Shown here piece by piece: positions 32,114-38,279 of a DNA stretch of 42,461 nucleotides (position 1 is its first letter; each line of letters starts with the position of its first letter). A program made the translations under genes and the position numbers. This DNA is from Gemmatimonadota bacterium (GTDB taxonomy: Bacteria; Gemmatimonadota; Gemmatimonadetes; Longimicrobiales; Gaopeijiaceae), in NCBI GenBank assembly GCA_028874985.1, contig JAPPGI010000055.1:2864-45324 (forward strand). The letters run 5' to 3'. Below the pieces are notes generated by a model. It did no database searches. It worked only from the letters and a program-made list of their open reading frames with translations, and was not told where the DNA came from.

Positions 32114-33567
32114 GGCGTTGCGCTTTCCGGGCCGGCCAGCCGGCGCCCCCCGTCGTCGGGAAGGTCTTCGGGACCACTCAAGTATACGTGAAATTCCGCG
32201 CCATCCCCAGTTTCCCCCGTCCCCCGCCCCCCGGACGCCAGCTCCACGCGGCCGTGGTTCGCCTCCGCCATCTCCTTGACGATTGCCAGGCCGAGACCCG
32301 CACCCTGCGCCTTGTCACCGACGAAGGGCTCGAAGATCCGGTCCCGCAGTTCGTGCGGAATCCCGGGCCCGTTGTCCTTCACCGCGAGCCGCACTTCGCC
32401 GTTCACCAGCGCCCCGCCCAGCCACACGCGGTCGCCGGCGTGGGCGGCGTTGCGCAGCAGGTTGAGCACCAGCCGCTTGACGTGGAGCGGGTCGGCCATG
32501 GCGAGGAGCGGTCTCGACGGCAGGTCAACGTGGAGTTCGCCACCCTTCTTCCCGAGTTCGGCTTCCGCGAGGGCCGCGGCTTCACCGAGCGGCTCGCGCA
32601 CGTCGTGCAGCTGCGGTTCGGTTTGCCCGGGGCGGGCGAATCCGAGGAACTCGTTGATGATGGCGTTCAGGCCCCGCACCTCCTTTCTCACCCGCTCCAG
32701 GATGCGCCGGCGTTCCCCGGCATCCTCCGTATCCTGCGCCGCGGACGCGAAGAGCTCGAGGCCCCCAAGCGGGTTGCGGATCTCGTGGGCGACGCGCGAC
32801 AGCATGAGGCGCAGCTGCTCATCGCGGCGCTGAATCCCGGTTCTCATGCGCTCCATGGCCCTGGCCAGCCGACCGACCTCGTCCTCCCCCTCGAGGTCGA
32901 AGGGGCGATCCATCGCGCCCCGCTGGATCCGCAGTGCTCCCCGGCTCATCACCTCGAGCCGTGAGGCTATGCCGCCGGCCAGGCGCCAGCCGATCAGCGC
33001 CGCCAGCAACCCCGCCCCGACCGAAAGCGCGACCACCGTCCACCCCAGCGTGTGAAGCGGTTCCAGGTGGTCGGCCGGCATCAGCACGGCCAGAAAGGCC
33101 TTGCCGGAGCTCAGACGCACGATGCCGTACTTGTACCATCGTCCGTCCCTGCCCGCGAAGAGCTCCGTCGTGGCCCAGCCGCGCTCATGCGCTTCCGGGA
33201 CCGCCGTGGAGATGTACGGCTCGACCCAGTGGAGCTTCTGCCCCAGCGGGAGCGGTTCGGCGCTTACCAGGACGGTCGCCGGATCGCCGGGCTCCCAGCG
33301 GAAGATGTCGGCGCGGTCCACATATGACTTGCGGTTGCGGTCGACCCTCGTGCTGTCGACGAGGCGGAGCAGCAGGGCGCGGTACTCGACCCAGATCTCC
33401 TCTCCCTCTTCGTGGCCCGGCCGCAGCCCGAGAAGGACTTCGTCCGCTCCGAAGGCCAGATCTCCCGCAACTCTCGCCACGTCAAGCAGCCTCTTGTCGA
33501 GCGCTTCCTCGAGTGCCTGCCGGGACGCGTTCCAACTCAACAACCCCTGAACCGCGCTGATCGCCAC
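32110..33567 (-). CDS. Membrane sensor histidine kinase
   Basis: 485 residues from GTG 33567. This start cuts the first membrane helix: the upstream frame continues RLRNRFALFFVAFAVAISAVQGLLSW back to a stop at 33667. GGAGG (33619–33623) precedes ATA at 33612 by 6 nt and CTG at 33606 by 12 nt, so the true start is probably non-standard and upstream. Features: TM1, periplasmic sensor ~25–175, TM2 (VVALSVGAGLLAALIGW), HAMP, H-box LSRVAHEIRNPLGG, N-box LLRNAAHAG, G-boxes DNGPGIP and GAGLGLAIVKE. Partner of the overlapping response regulator. Confidence 0.88.
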
Positions 33568-35362: not shown

Positions 35363-36466
35363 CTAGTCCACCAGGCGCAACGGCATGACGAGACACAGAT
35401 AGTCGAGGTCCCCGTCGCCCGGCTCGACCGTCACGGCGCGCTCGGCGGTCCTGAACGCGAGCTTGACATCCCCTTCCGGCATGTTGCGCAGGACCTCCAG
35501 GACGTAGTTCGCGTTAAAGGCGATCTGCAGCGATTCGCCCTCGTAGTCGAGTTCCAGCTCGTCATGGGCCTCCCCGAGATCCGGGGTCATGACGTCCATG
35601 TGGACCCGGTTGGACTCGAACGAGAGCTTGATCCGCCGGGTCTGGTCGCTCGCGACGACGGCCATGCGGCGCACGCTGGCTTCGAGCGCGTCCCTGTCGA
35701 CCCGCGCGATCTTGTCGTTGTCCTTCGGGATCACCTGCTCGTAGTTGGGATACCGTCCCTCGATCAGCCTCGTGTAGACCTCTTGGTTGTCGGAGCGGAA
35801 CCCCAGGTGGTTCCCGCCCTTGCCGACGGCGAGCTCCCCGTCACCGTCGAACAGCCGTTCCACCTGTGCGAGCGCCGCGGGGGGCACGATGAACTCGCCG
35901 CTGCTCCCGTGCGCGGCCGCGGCGCCGACCTCCATCTTGGCCAGACGGTGTCCGTTGGTGGCCACCATCGTCATGGTCGTGTCCCCCAACGCCCAGTAGA
36001 CGCCGTTGAGGATCGGCCGGCTCTCCTCGTTGGACACCGCGAAAGCGGTACTGCGGATCAGTTGGCGCAGCGATCTTTCCGAGACGCCCCAACCCTGCTC
36101 GAAGTCCATGGCCGGAAGGTTCGGGAACTCCTCGCTCGGCAACCCGTTCAACTTGAACCGGCTGTGTCCGCAACCGATCTCCAGCTGGTGGCCGCGGGCC
36201 TGCAGGTCAACGGGCTGGTCCGGAAGCTCGCGGGTAAGCTCCAGGAGCTTGCGGCCCGGCGCGGTGATCGCTCCCGCCTGCACCACCTCCGCCGGCACAC
36301 GAACGCGTATCGACACGTCGAGGTCCGTGCCGGCAATCCAGATCGAGTCCTCCTGCGTCTCGATCAGGACGTTCGACAGGACCGGCAGCGTGGTCTTGCT
36401 GGGGATGCTCGCCGATACGGCCGCCAGCCCCCGCTGAAGGTTCTGGCGTGTGATGGTCAGTCTCAT
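35363..36466 (-). CDS. dnaN: DNA polymerase III sliding clamp (beta subunit)
   Basis: 367 residues, ATG 36466 with GGGAGG-type spacing just upstream. The three-domain beta-clamp pattern is complete: SIPSKTTLPVLSNVLIE at the start, FAVSNEESRPILNGVYW with TNGHRLA in domain 2, EGRYPNYEQVIP, and the C-terminal YLCLVMPLRL peptide that shapes the binding cleft. It tethers polymerase to DNA. Downstream of dnaA in the same direction, the usual order. Confidence 0.96.
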   Translation of the reverse strand: MRLTITRQNLQRGLAAVSASIPSKTTLPVLSNVLIETQEDSIWIAGTDLDVSIRVRVPAEVVQAGAITAPGRKLLELTRELPDQPVDLQARGHQLEIGCGHSRFKLNGLPSEEFPNLPAMDFEQGWGVSERSLRQLIRSTAFAVSNEESRPILNGVYWALGDTTMTMVATNGHRLAKMEVGAAAAHGSSGEFIVPPAALAQVERLFDGDGELAVGKGGNHLGFRSDNQEVYTRLIEGRYPNYEQVIPKDNDKIARVDRDALEASVRRMAVVASDQTRRIKLSFESNRVHMDVMTPDLGEAHDELELDYEGESLQIAFNANYVLEVLRNMPEGDVKLAFRTAERAVTVEPGDGDLDYLCLVMPLRLVD

Positions 36467-36774
36467 GGGAGGCTCGTGATGGGGTGGGAGAGAGGGAAAA
36501 TCCGGCGGTTCAGCGGTGAGTCCCTATTATGTAGGTAACAAGGTAACAGGTCATCATCATAAGGGGTGTGGAAAAGTGCACAGCCCGGGTGCCGTACGGC
36601 GGGGGATGCAGCGGGAATCCGGGAATCCGGGGATTCGGGGGTATGTGCACGGATGGAGGAAAAGAACGGCATTTCGGTGGCGACGAGGGGGGGAGTGTGG
36701 AGAACACGATGGCCCGCGGCCGGTTTTCCACAGTTCTTCCACAGGGACATGAGGAAAAGGGAGAGCTCCCCTCT
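36467..36774. other. oriC: dnaA–dnaN intergenic region, candidate replication origin
   Basis: 308 bp without a gene, flanked by dnaA and dnaN. Four DnaA-box-like 9-mers: TGTGGAAAA (36567–36575) and TGTGGAGAA (36696–36704) in one orientation, TTTTCCACA (36724–36732) and TCTTCCACA (36735–36743) in the other. The last two start 11 bp apart, one helical turn. The first and third are the same box, one mismatch from TTATCCACA. An unusually AT-rich patch for this genome (36525–36562) contains two tandem AGGTAACA copies and TCATCATCAT. Exact consensus boxes are absent, so the origin call is tentative. Confidence 0.55.
36526..36554 (-). promoter_or_regulatory. Possible dnaN promoter
   Basis: Minus strand ATGACC (36549–36554), 17-nt spacer, CATAAT (36526–36531), 60 nt before dnaN. 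The spacer is formed by the AGGTAACA direct repeats. Confidence 0.4.
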
Positions 36775-38148
36775 TCAGGCGCTCTTCTGAAGGTCGCGGC
36801 GCAGTCCGTCCACCCTCGCCCGGAAGGCATCATCGGCGTCCAGACGTTCCTCCACTTTCCGAATGGAGTGGATCACGGTCGAGTGGTCCCTGCCCCCGAA
36901 GGCCTGCCCGATCTGCTTGAGGGGAGTATCGAGGATTTCCCGAATCAGGAACATTGCGACCTGGCGGGGCACGGCGAGGGCACGGGCGCGGCCGGGCGAT
37001 GCGAGAGCCTCTCCGGTGACGCCCCACACCTTGCCGACGCGTTCCCGTATTGTCCCGGGGTCCAGGGGTGTCGGGGTCTCGCCGGCGGAGCCCAGACCCG
37101 CCAGTGCTAGGTTTGCGAGGTCGAGCGTCAGTTCCTGCCGGGTGAGCGACGAGTAGGCGAGCAGCTTGATGATGGCACCTTCGAGTTCCCTGACCGACGA
37201 CGTACAGCGCCGTGCGATCAGATCGAGGATGTCGGCGGGGAGGAAGATCCGGTCTTCGTCCGCCTTCTTGCGGAGGATCGCCACCCGCGTCTCGTAGTCC
37301 GGCGGGTTGACGTCGGCGACGAGACCCCACTCGAAACGTGACACGAGGCGGTCCTCGAGGCCCTCGAGTTCCTTGGGATGGCGGTCGCTGGTCAGCACGA
37401 TCTGGCGGCTGGCGTTGTAGAGGACGTTGAAGGTGTGGAAGAACTCCTCCTGGGTGTGCTCCTTGCGGCGGAGGAACTGGACGTCGTCCACTAGGAGAAG
37501 GTCGTAGGACCGGTAGCGGGCCCGGAATGCATCGGTCGTCTGGTCGTAGATCGCCGTGACCATCTCGTTGACGAACTGTTCCGCCGGAATGTAGCAGATG
37601 CGGGTGCGCGCGCCCTCCTCCAGCAGCCGGTGCCCGATCGCCTGCATCAGATGGGTCTTGCCGAGCCCCGTGGCCCCGTAGAGGAAGAGGGGGTTGTAGC
37701 TGCGGGCCGGTCTCGCCGCGACGGCGAGGCTCGCCGCCTGGGCAAGTCGGTTGTTCTCGCCCACAATGAAGCGGGAAAAGGTGTAGCGGGCGTTCAACGC
37801 CGGGCGCGGACCGGGAGGTGGGGGATCGTCGGCGGGCCGGGATTCCGGCTCGACCACCTGGGTCACCGTGATTTCGGGGGCGTGGCGCTCGGGGAGGGAG
37901 GCGTCCCAGGAGATTTCGAGTTCCACCGGCCCCGGTACGGCGCCGACGGCGATACCGTGAAGGAGCGGCCCGTATTTGTCTTCGAGCCACTCCGCGTGGA
38001 ACTTGCTCGTCGCCGCGATGTGCAGGACGCCGCGGGACCAGGAGACCGCTCTTGCGCTGGCGATCCAGGTGCGGAAGGTCTGCTCGGGAAGGCCGGTCCT
38101 GGCCTGCTCGAGGATGCGGTTCCAGAGGTCGGTAGCGGTCGGCGTCAT
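36775..38148 (-). CDS. dnaA: Chromosomal replication initiator protein DnaA
   Basis: 457 residues from ATG 38148; a longer frame would include the promoter -35 element. Domain I (LWNRILEQARTGLPEQTFRTWI), a short proline-rich linker ~100–118, AAA+ domain III with YTFSRFIVGENN, GATGLGKT at 158–165, LLLVDDVQFL and the sensor region TSDRHPKEL, then domain IV with GGRDHSTVIHSIRKV, the DnaA-box-binding signature. It melts origin DNA and loads the replisome. It is followed by dnaN and diverges from rpmH. Confidence 0.97.
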   Translation of the reverse strand: MTPTATDLWNRILEQARTGLPEQTFRTWIASARAVSWSRGVLHIAATSKFHAEWLEDKYGPLLHGIAVGAVPGPVELEISWDASLPERHAPEITVTQVVEPESRPADDPPPPGPRPALNARYTFSRFIVGENNRLAQAASLAVAARPARSYNPLFLYGATGLGKTHLMQAIGHRLLEEGARTRICYIPAEQFVNEMVTAIYDQTTDAFRARYRSYDLLLVDDVQFLRRKEHTQEEFFHTFNVLYNASRQIVLTSDRHPKELEGLEDRLVSRFEWGLVADVNPPDYETRVAILRKKADEDRIFLPADILDLIARRCTSSVRELEGAIIKLLAYSSLTRQELTLDLANLALAGLGSAGETPTPLDPGTIRERVGKVWGVTGEALASPGRARALAVPRQVAMFLIREILDTPLKQIGQAFGGRDHSTVIHSIRKVEERLDADDAFRARVDGLRRDLQKSA

Positions 38149-38270: not shown

Positions 38271-38279
38271 CGTGGATAA
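38271..38279 (-). promoter_or_regulatory. DnaA-box candidate upstream of dnaA
   Basis: CGTGGATAA on the plus strand is TTATCCACG on the minus strand, one mismatch from the consensus box. It sits between the dnaA and rpmH promoters, a position used for dnaA autoregulation or origin function in other bacteria. Confidence 0.5.

Follow-up and report, generated by a model that had tools for sequence, protein, structure and literature searches.

A candidate chromosomal origin with cytosine-centred DnaA-trios in a clade of Gemmatimonadota

In Bacillus subtilis, the basal unwinding system (BUS) of oriC is formed by DnaA boxes 6/7, a GC-rich spacer and a run of DnaA-trios, canonically 3'-GAT-5'; cytosine, like the adenine in the middle of these trios, has an exocyclic amine. 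It is through this amine that Asn187 of DnaA holds the middle trio base (PMC10721633). According to the available text of the same work, changing the middle adenine to cytosine gave an unwinding rate similar to that of adenine, with G, T and U being slower (Pelliciari et al. 2023, PMC10721633), and in vivo a cytosine in the middle of trios 1-3 was better than a guanine or a thymine. The cytosine result led its authors to suggest, in their discussion, that homologues of DnaA may recognise a variety of sequences; single-stranded origin recognition is known structurally in B. subtilis, and this 2023 structure paper, in its available portion, left the reading of other sequences open (PMC10721633). 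Elsewhere, the middle T of the complementary strand has been described as highly conserved (PMC8235120, available text), and the published search rule, at least three 3'-NAN-5' trios within 16 nt of a box, holds in 1755 of 2070 origins (PMC8287927, available text). Regarding natural trios centred on cytosine, we found none in the literature covered, including the available text of PMC13220808, PMC10225481, PMC8235120 and PMC6669920.

Here we analysed a stretch of 42,461 bases (the window) from the 4.25 Mb genome of an uncultured member of the Gemmatimonadota. The genus of the window has 23 genomes in our collection and its family 121.

A predicted oriC between dnaA and dnaN

The locus presents the gene order pyrE, dnaN, dnaA, yidC and mnmE, with pyrE on one side of the dnaN-dnaA pair and yidC and mnmE on the other. 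The gene for the replication initiator, dnaA (36775-38148, minus strand, 457 aa), matches TIGR00362 above its cut-off and was also read by alignment to PDB 8btg and column counts, and dnaN (35363-36466, minus strand), encoding the beta subunit of DNA polymerase III, matches TIGR00663 above its cut-off. Between them lies an intergenic gap of 308 bp (36467-36774), predicted to be oriC by its boxes, its AT-rich patch and its conservation. A GC-skew minimum located elsewhere would speak against the original prediction of an origin at this place; the cumulative minimum falls at 36361, about 100 bp from the gap, a value that refers to the 42,461-base window, the genome itself being in 230 contigs. 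Regarding closed relatives, 20 sampled stretches of genome G021 gave a negative skew just before dnaA (263.8 kb) and a positive one just after it, while beyond about 2 Mb the sampled skew was mostly negative again and several stretches were opposite in sign. Genome G022 showed a sharp local minimum at dnaN-dnaA (1406-1407 kb), an agreement that is local, with no clear pattern away from dnaA. No known RNA element was detected at the gathering threshold between positions 33000 and 40000 of the window.

Four box-like 9-mers had been reported within 36567-36743, two in each orientation, and all of them are present. The first, TTTTCCACA at 36567-36575 on the minus strand, abuts the trios described below and is backed by an exact match and by the alignment of relatives. 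It is followed by TTCTCCACA at 36696-36704 (minus strand), which is TTTTCCACA in several close relatives, by a second TTTTCCACA at 36724-36732 (plus strand), and by TCTTCCACA at 36735-36743 (plus strand), with two mismatches to TTATCCACA and one to TTTTCCACA. As had been noticed, the same 9-mer is thus found on opposite strands (36567-36575 and 36724-36732), and two boxes have their starts, 36724 and 36735, 11 bp apart. A weak fifth box, TTTTCCTCA (36750-36758, minus strand), sits just beyond the span first reported. Allowing up to one mismatch to TTATCCACA or TTTTCCACA, we counted 5 boxes in the gap; dinucleotide shuffles averaged 0.108, and not one of 2000 had as many as 5. The two TTTTCCACA copies are the only exact TTWTCCACA in the window, and the whole genome has 15 copies, 11 of them being TTTTCCACA. 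Box starts in the gap are 32/43/71/200 in the window and 38/50/77/206, 105/117/144/274 and 44/56/83/213 in three relatives. Boxes that were not conserved between relatives would also have weakened the original prediction, and every one of the 23 genomes of the genus carries one or more exact TTWTCCACA copies in this gap. The box cluster is real, far above chance and conserved.

B. subtilis has a box cluster upstream of dnaA too. We looked for a second conserved cluster at that place and rejected it: the window has a lone TTATCCACG at 38271-38279, with none in the relatives, and no box with up to one mismatch was present in the 420 bases before dnaA in any of 22 relatives (L002-L023).

A box with T at position 3 had been proposed as specific to this lineage. 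Such a T is enriched in the clade defined below, where it is found in 82 of 95 boxes; the other family genomes have it in 81 of 166. The variant itself is not new, because TTTTCCACA is a standing cyanobacterial box, according to the available text of PMC4674748; cyanobacterial origins beside dnaN share the box and its T at position 3 with the window but belong to an unrelated lineage, and the variant is not diagnostic. As for an origin with TTTTCCACA boxes typical of the lineage, it is supported by the box excess, the conservation and the skew minimum.

The most AT-rich 40 bases of the gap (approximately 36525-36564, 65% AT) are the predicted unwinding element, and contain a tandem direct repeat, two copies of AGGTAACA at 36533-36548, that was not seen as a repeat in relatives. 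The original prediction rightly described an AT-rich patch with direct repeats, and missed the trinucleotide run directly beside the box, in the place of DnaA-trios. Besides, a second conserved AT-rich block, TTACTAATTC, begins 26 nt from the first base of the run in many members of the clade (36520-36545 in the window), and is perhaps the dnaN promoter or a further melting element. Past the AT-rich stretch, towards dnaN, many gaps of the family (e.g. L132, L199 and L250) carry an inverted partner, TACTATGTTTTT ... AAGAGAGATAGTATC, which resembles a putative second, facing set of trios. The gap shows what is expected of an oriC of the dnaA-dnaN type, namely a box cluster above chance, a GC-skew switch (in the window) and an AT-rich element, and its boxes, AT-rich patch and cumulative skew minimum indicate that it is very probably the chromosomal oriC.

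The trinucleotide run beside the box

In the aligned gap, conservation is highest in a block that combines the box (36567-36575) with a C-rich spacer and a run of trinucleotides. The spacer (36563-36566) has 4 nt, CCCC on the minus strand, and the register of the trios is fixed by box and spacer. The trio strand corresponds to the plus strand of the window, and four bases past the box it reads 3'-AAT ACT ACT ACT-5': trio 1 (36560-36562) is centred on adenine, while trios 2-4 (36551-36559, 5'-TCATCATCA-3' on the plus strand) are centred on cytosine. Canonical 3'-GAT-5' trios in the window were rejected, trio 1 being the only A-centred one in the conserved register. Most other genera of the family carry TACTACTAC as the run, and its opposite strand gives 3'-GAT GAT GAT-5', the canonical DnaA-trio; in the genus of the window it is TATGATGAY. 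These other genera (e.g. G023, TACTACTACTACT) resemble the window in gap, box and spacer geometry but differ in having 3'-GAT-5' throughout trios 1-4.

From the 121 genomes of the family, 109 were read and 107 tabulated (4 had no dnaA match, 8 were left out as partial matches or at a contig edge, and 2 lacked dnaN after dnaA). For 8 of the 107 we placed the register manually, and site picking across the 109 genomes gave a small bonus to A-centred trios. We have defined as the clade the 24 genomes formed by the genus (23) and G037, much of which reads 3'-GAT ACT ACT GCT-5'. The 4-nt spacer is kept in 22 of these 24 genomes and in 59 of the 83 others of the family. The middle base of trio 1 is A in all 24, and that of trios 2, 3 and 4 is C in 23, 24 and 22 of them, respectively. 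As to the flanks, the first base is a purine throughout trios 1-4, and the third base of trios 2-4 is T in 24, 24 and 21 of the 24. Among the 83 genomes outside the clade, the middle base is A in 83 (trio 1), 83 (trio 2), 68 (trio 3) and 77 (trio 4), and some genomes of other genera show a single C-centred trio among A-centred ones. Within the clade, G017, the closest to the window by DnaA identity, reads AAT GCT ACT ACC, and G007 has A in trio 4. G014, a long branch, has mostly A-centred trios (GAT GAT GCT GAT, with A in trios 2 and 4), representing either a reversal or a misplacement of this genome. Searching for the motif CCACA-N3-6-TATGATGAYGA gave hits in 16 of 395 genomes of the phylum, once each and only in the genus of the window and the neighbouring g5, while its reversed control gave none in the 395.

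Regarding the published definition of a BUS, a box with up to two mismatches does lie within 16 nt of the trios (TTTTCCACA, spacer of 4). The conserved register falls short of at least three consecutive 3'-NAN-5': at spacer 4, the run counted with A only is 1 in 22 of the 23 genomes of the genus and 2 in G014, and allowing A or C it goes from 4 to 7 in genus genomes. One could argue that the trios are still A-centred in a register shifted one base nearer the box (3'-GAA TAC TAC TAC-5'), leaving the NAN rule intact. Taken alone, the window does have a NAN run of 4 at spacer 3, and in any register the rule also holds in 11 of the 22 other genomes of the genus. However, in 11 of the 23 no NAN run longer than 2 lies within 16 nt of the box, and in 17 of the 24 clade genomes a G stands in the corresponding run where an A would be needed. 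The shift would further need T as first and C as third bases, against G or A first and T third elsewhere, and a changed spacer, even though the 4-nt spacer and trio 1 are kept. We consider it unlikely.

The opposite strand, read 3' to 5', has an A every third base, and a switch of strand could be invoked, with the minus-strand 5'-TATGATGATGA-3' acting as the trios of a DnaA filament that approaches from dnaN, on whose side a reverse box-like TGTGGATTT is seen in some relatives. This box, though, is tens of bases off and degenerate in the window, whereas the boxes of the dnaA side, the spacer and trio 1 are all kept; genomes of other genera with one C-centred trio amid A-centred ones also argue against a switch, which seems very improbable. 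Even harder to sustain is a reading in which the conserved ATGATGACG begins a leader or a short reading frame ahead of dnaN and is no DnaA site. It opens a frame such as MMTIFYLLVTNS in several relatives, but no purine-rich ribosome site lies ahead of it, frame length varies from 4 to more than 30 codons (with four frames extending beyond the 40 codons covered), the C/T exchange seen at column 9 alters the amino acid, and ATGATGACG is found exactly where sister genera carry canonical trios.

Our preferred reading is that of C-centred trios in the conserved register. By the NAN rule, taken in the conserved register, this element fails the BUS definition, yet the run occupies the place of the BUS of its relatives and most likely works like a BUS with C-centred trios. 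In comparison with the BUS of B. subtilis, the box, the 4-nt C-rich spacer, the trinucleotide run, the AT-rich stretch, the position between dnaA and dnaN and the pocket residues of DnaA are alike; the differences are the C-centred trios 2-4, the A instead of G as first base of trios 2-3, and an upstream partner of the tandem box that is degenerate in the window. C-centred trios are also shared with B. subtilis FDS686, in which the middle A of trios 1-3 was changed to C and, as described in the available text of PMC10721633, initiation was better than with G or T. FDS686 is artificial, whereas the state of the window is natural and conserved, with trio 1 still centred on A.

Changes of the middle base and sites beyond the family

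We built a DnaA tree of the 107 genomes with FastTree, rooted it on G057 and counted changes by parsimony. In the middle base of trios 2-4 we counted 13 A>C, 2 A>G, 2 A>T, 4 C>A and 1 T>C. Taking a null of one third, 13 A>C out of 17 gives a P of 0.0003. The flanks of the same trios showed 22 T>C in the third base and 10 G>A and 3 G>C in the first, with few others. According to these counts, most changes in the flanks are transitions, while the middle mainly undergoes A>C, the transversion in which the amine is retained. The C-trio genomes form a single clade, and its 24 genomes amount to roughly one event; support is weak (0.37) for how G036, G037 and the genus branch.

These changes bear on the view that the trios have decayed, so that the origin is opened by AT-richness and boxes only and the run has another role, for instance as part of the dnaN promoter. 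The second AT-rich conserved block, TTACTAATTC, present 26 nt on in many of the clade, would fit with it. Nevertheless, the run ranks among the best conserved stretches of the gap, together with the box core, and its substitutions are mainly of the kind tolerated biochemically, so we give decay a low probability.

For sites outside the clade we used a blind picking based on the box core, the spacer, the first CTA and the later AT content, with the middle of trios 2-4 left unused. It found a site in 211 of 221, failed in 5 of the 24 genomes of the clade, that of the window among them, owing to a trio 1 reading AAT, and carries the noise of mis-picked sites. Relatives are not independent and counts beyond the clade are descriptive: in the middle of trios 2-4 we counted A 217, C 23, G 3 and T 6 in the rest of the family (83 genomes); A 126, C 35, G 11 and T 5 (n=177) in other families of the phylum (59 of 60 genomes fetched, hand-chosen from the better matches and with the most distant families missing); and A 81, C 20, G 2 and T 2 (n=105) in Firmicutes, mostly Negativicutes (35 of 36), in which trio 5 was C-centred in 25 of 35 sites, among them loci of L024-L056. 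L057, L037, L069 and L026 (a copy of G010) were excluded from the Firmicutes and Actinobacteria sets. Adding a filter that ignores the middle and asks for a purine first and T or C third in trios 2-4, we obtained C 17, G 2 and T 0 in 68 genomes of the family, C 27, G 0 and T 2 in 42 of other families, and C 16, G 0 and T 0 in 26 Firmicutes. Candidate C-centred trios, as identified from these sites, also occur singly in other Gemmatimonadota and in Negativicutes.

Four Negativicutes (L039, L042, L058 and L059, from Pectinatus and Propionispira) show alternating A and C, GAT GCT GAT GCT GCT GAT. In other families of the phylum, L320 (G203) reads GAT GCT GCT GCT GAT, with three C-centred trios in a row, and L291 and L292 (G323 and G325) have C-centred trios 4-6. 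The three-C runs of G203 and of G323/G325 are independent; these sites come from a score favouring A or C in the middle and are used as illustrations only. Finally, in Micrococcaceae (Rothia and Kocuria, L061-L081), four bases past the box and with a trio 1 that may be TTA, 17 of 18 genomes read AAT AAT TGT GAT, with a G-centred trio 3. Blind picking is unreliable in Actinobacteria, and this trio is either a real exception or the product of another register; it counts against an A-or-C rule.

DnaA and the proposed reading of cytosine

The DnaA of the window keeps E190, N194, R209, K229, E230 and E235 of the trio pocket and the arginine finger R271, which in the alignment to PDB 8btg are, in order, E183, N187, R202, K222, E223, E228 and R264 of B. 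subtilis. The equivalents of N187, R202, E228, K222, I193 and R264 are invariant in the 24 clade genomes and that of E183 is kept in 23, and the residues that build the dinucleotide pocket, which belong to the BUS definition, are present in the clade. L122 (G014), the genus member with mostly A-centred trios, carries Val where E183 would be, has a small genome of 2.8 Mb and sits on a long branch of the DnaA tree. Besides, family genomes of other genera (e.g. G054:C96 and G044:C264) present extra DnaA-like AAA+ matches, of about 40-45% identity over residues ~116-355, within longer open frames of several hundred aa.

In the cryo-EM structure of the B. subtilis protein, Asn196 contacts the third trio base (PDB 8btg; PMC10721633, available text). 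At its equivalent, position 203, all 24 clade genomes have N, H or Q, whereas 84 of the 85 others have G or A and the sister genome G036 is the lone exception, with N; the position was singled out after the fact, as 8btg shows its contact with the trio, and concerns one clade. Negativicutes with C-centred trios have G there. An Asn, His or Gln at this position may compensate for the lost first-base G in trios 2-3. We rejected covariation between DnaA and trios as a proof: 20 DnaA positions separate C-trio from A-trio genomes at the cut-offs used, and they prove nothing because the C-trio clade is monophyletic.

It seems quite probable that the gap is a chromosomal origin opened by a variant basal unwinding system with C-centred trios, in which DnaA binding, capture of cytosine and unwinding at the predicted trios would proceed as follows. 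DnaA would bind the double-stranded TTTTCCACA box (36567-36575), and its AAA+ domains would polymerise past the 4-nt C-rich spacer along the plus strand of the window, over 3'-AAT ACT ACT ACT-5', with every two adjacent protomers capturing bases one and two of a trio. For trios 2-4 this would mean capture of a cytosine instead of an adenine in the middle; at the Asn187-type residue (N194 in the DnaA of the window), the N4 amine of cytosine would stand in for the adenine N6 amine. The AT-rich stretch beyond the trios would then melt, and the upstream boxes (36696-36758) would gather further DnaA.

Judging from the aligned genomes, the cytosine swap seems to be a natural, fixed and conserved state in the clade of the window. 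We also lean, by a small measure, towards a natural trio code of the form 3'-N(A/C)N-5', in which the exocyclic amine would be read and the middle base would drift between A and C and seldom go to G or T; the clade would have moved furthest, with three consecutive box-proximal C trios, and a change in DnaA may compensate. By implication, origin finders that use the NAN rule would miss or mis-register some origins. The clade is a lineage in which the replacement of A by C looks fixed in nature, with an evolutionary signature of A>C far above A>G, and such a C-trio lineage would make the amine-reading model directly testable.
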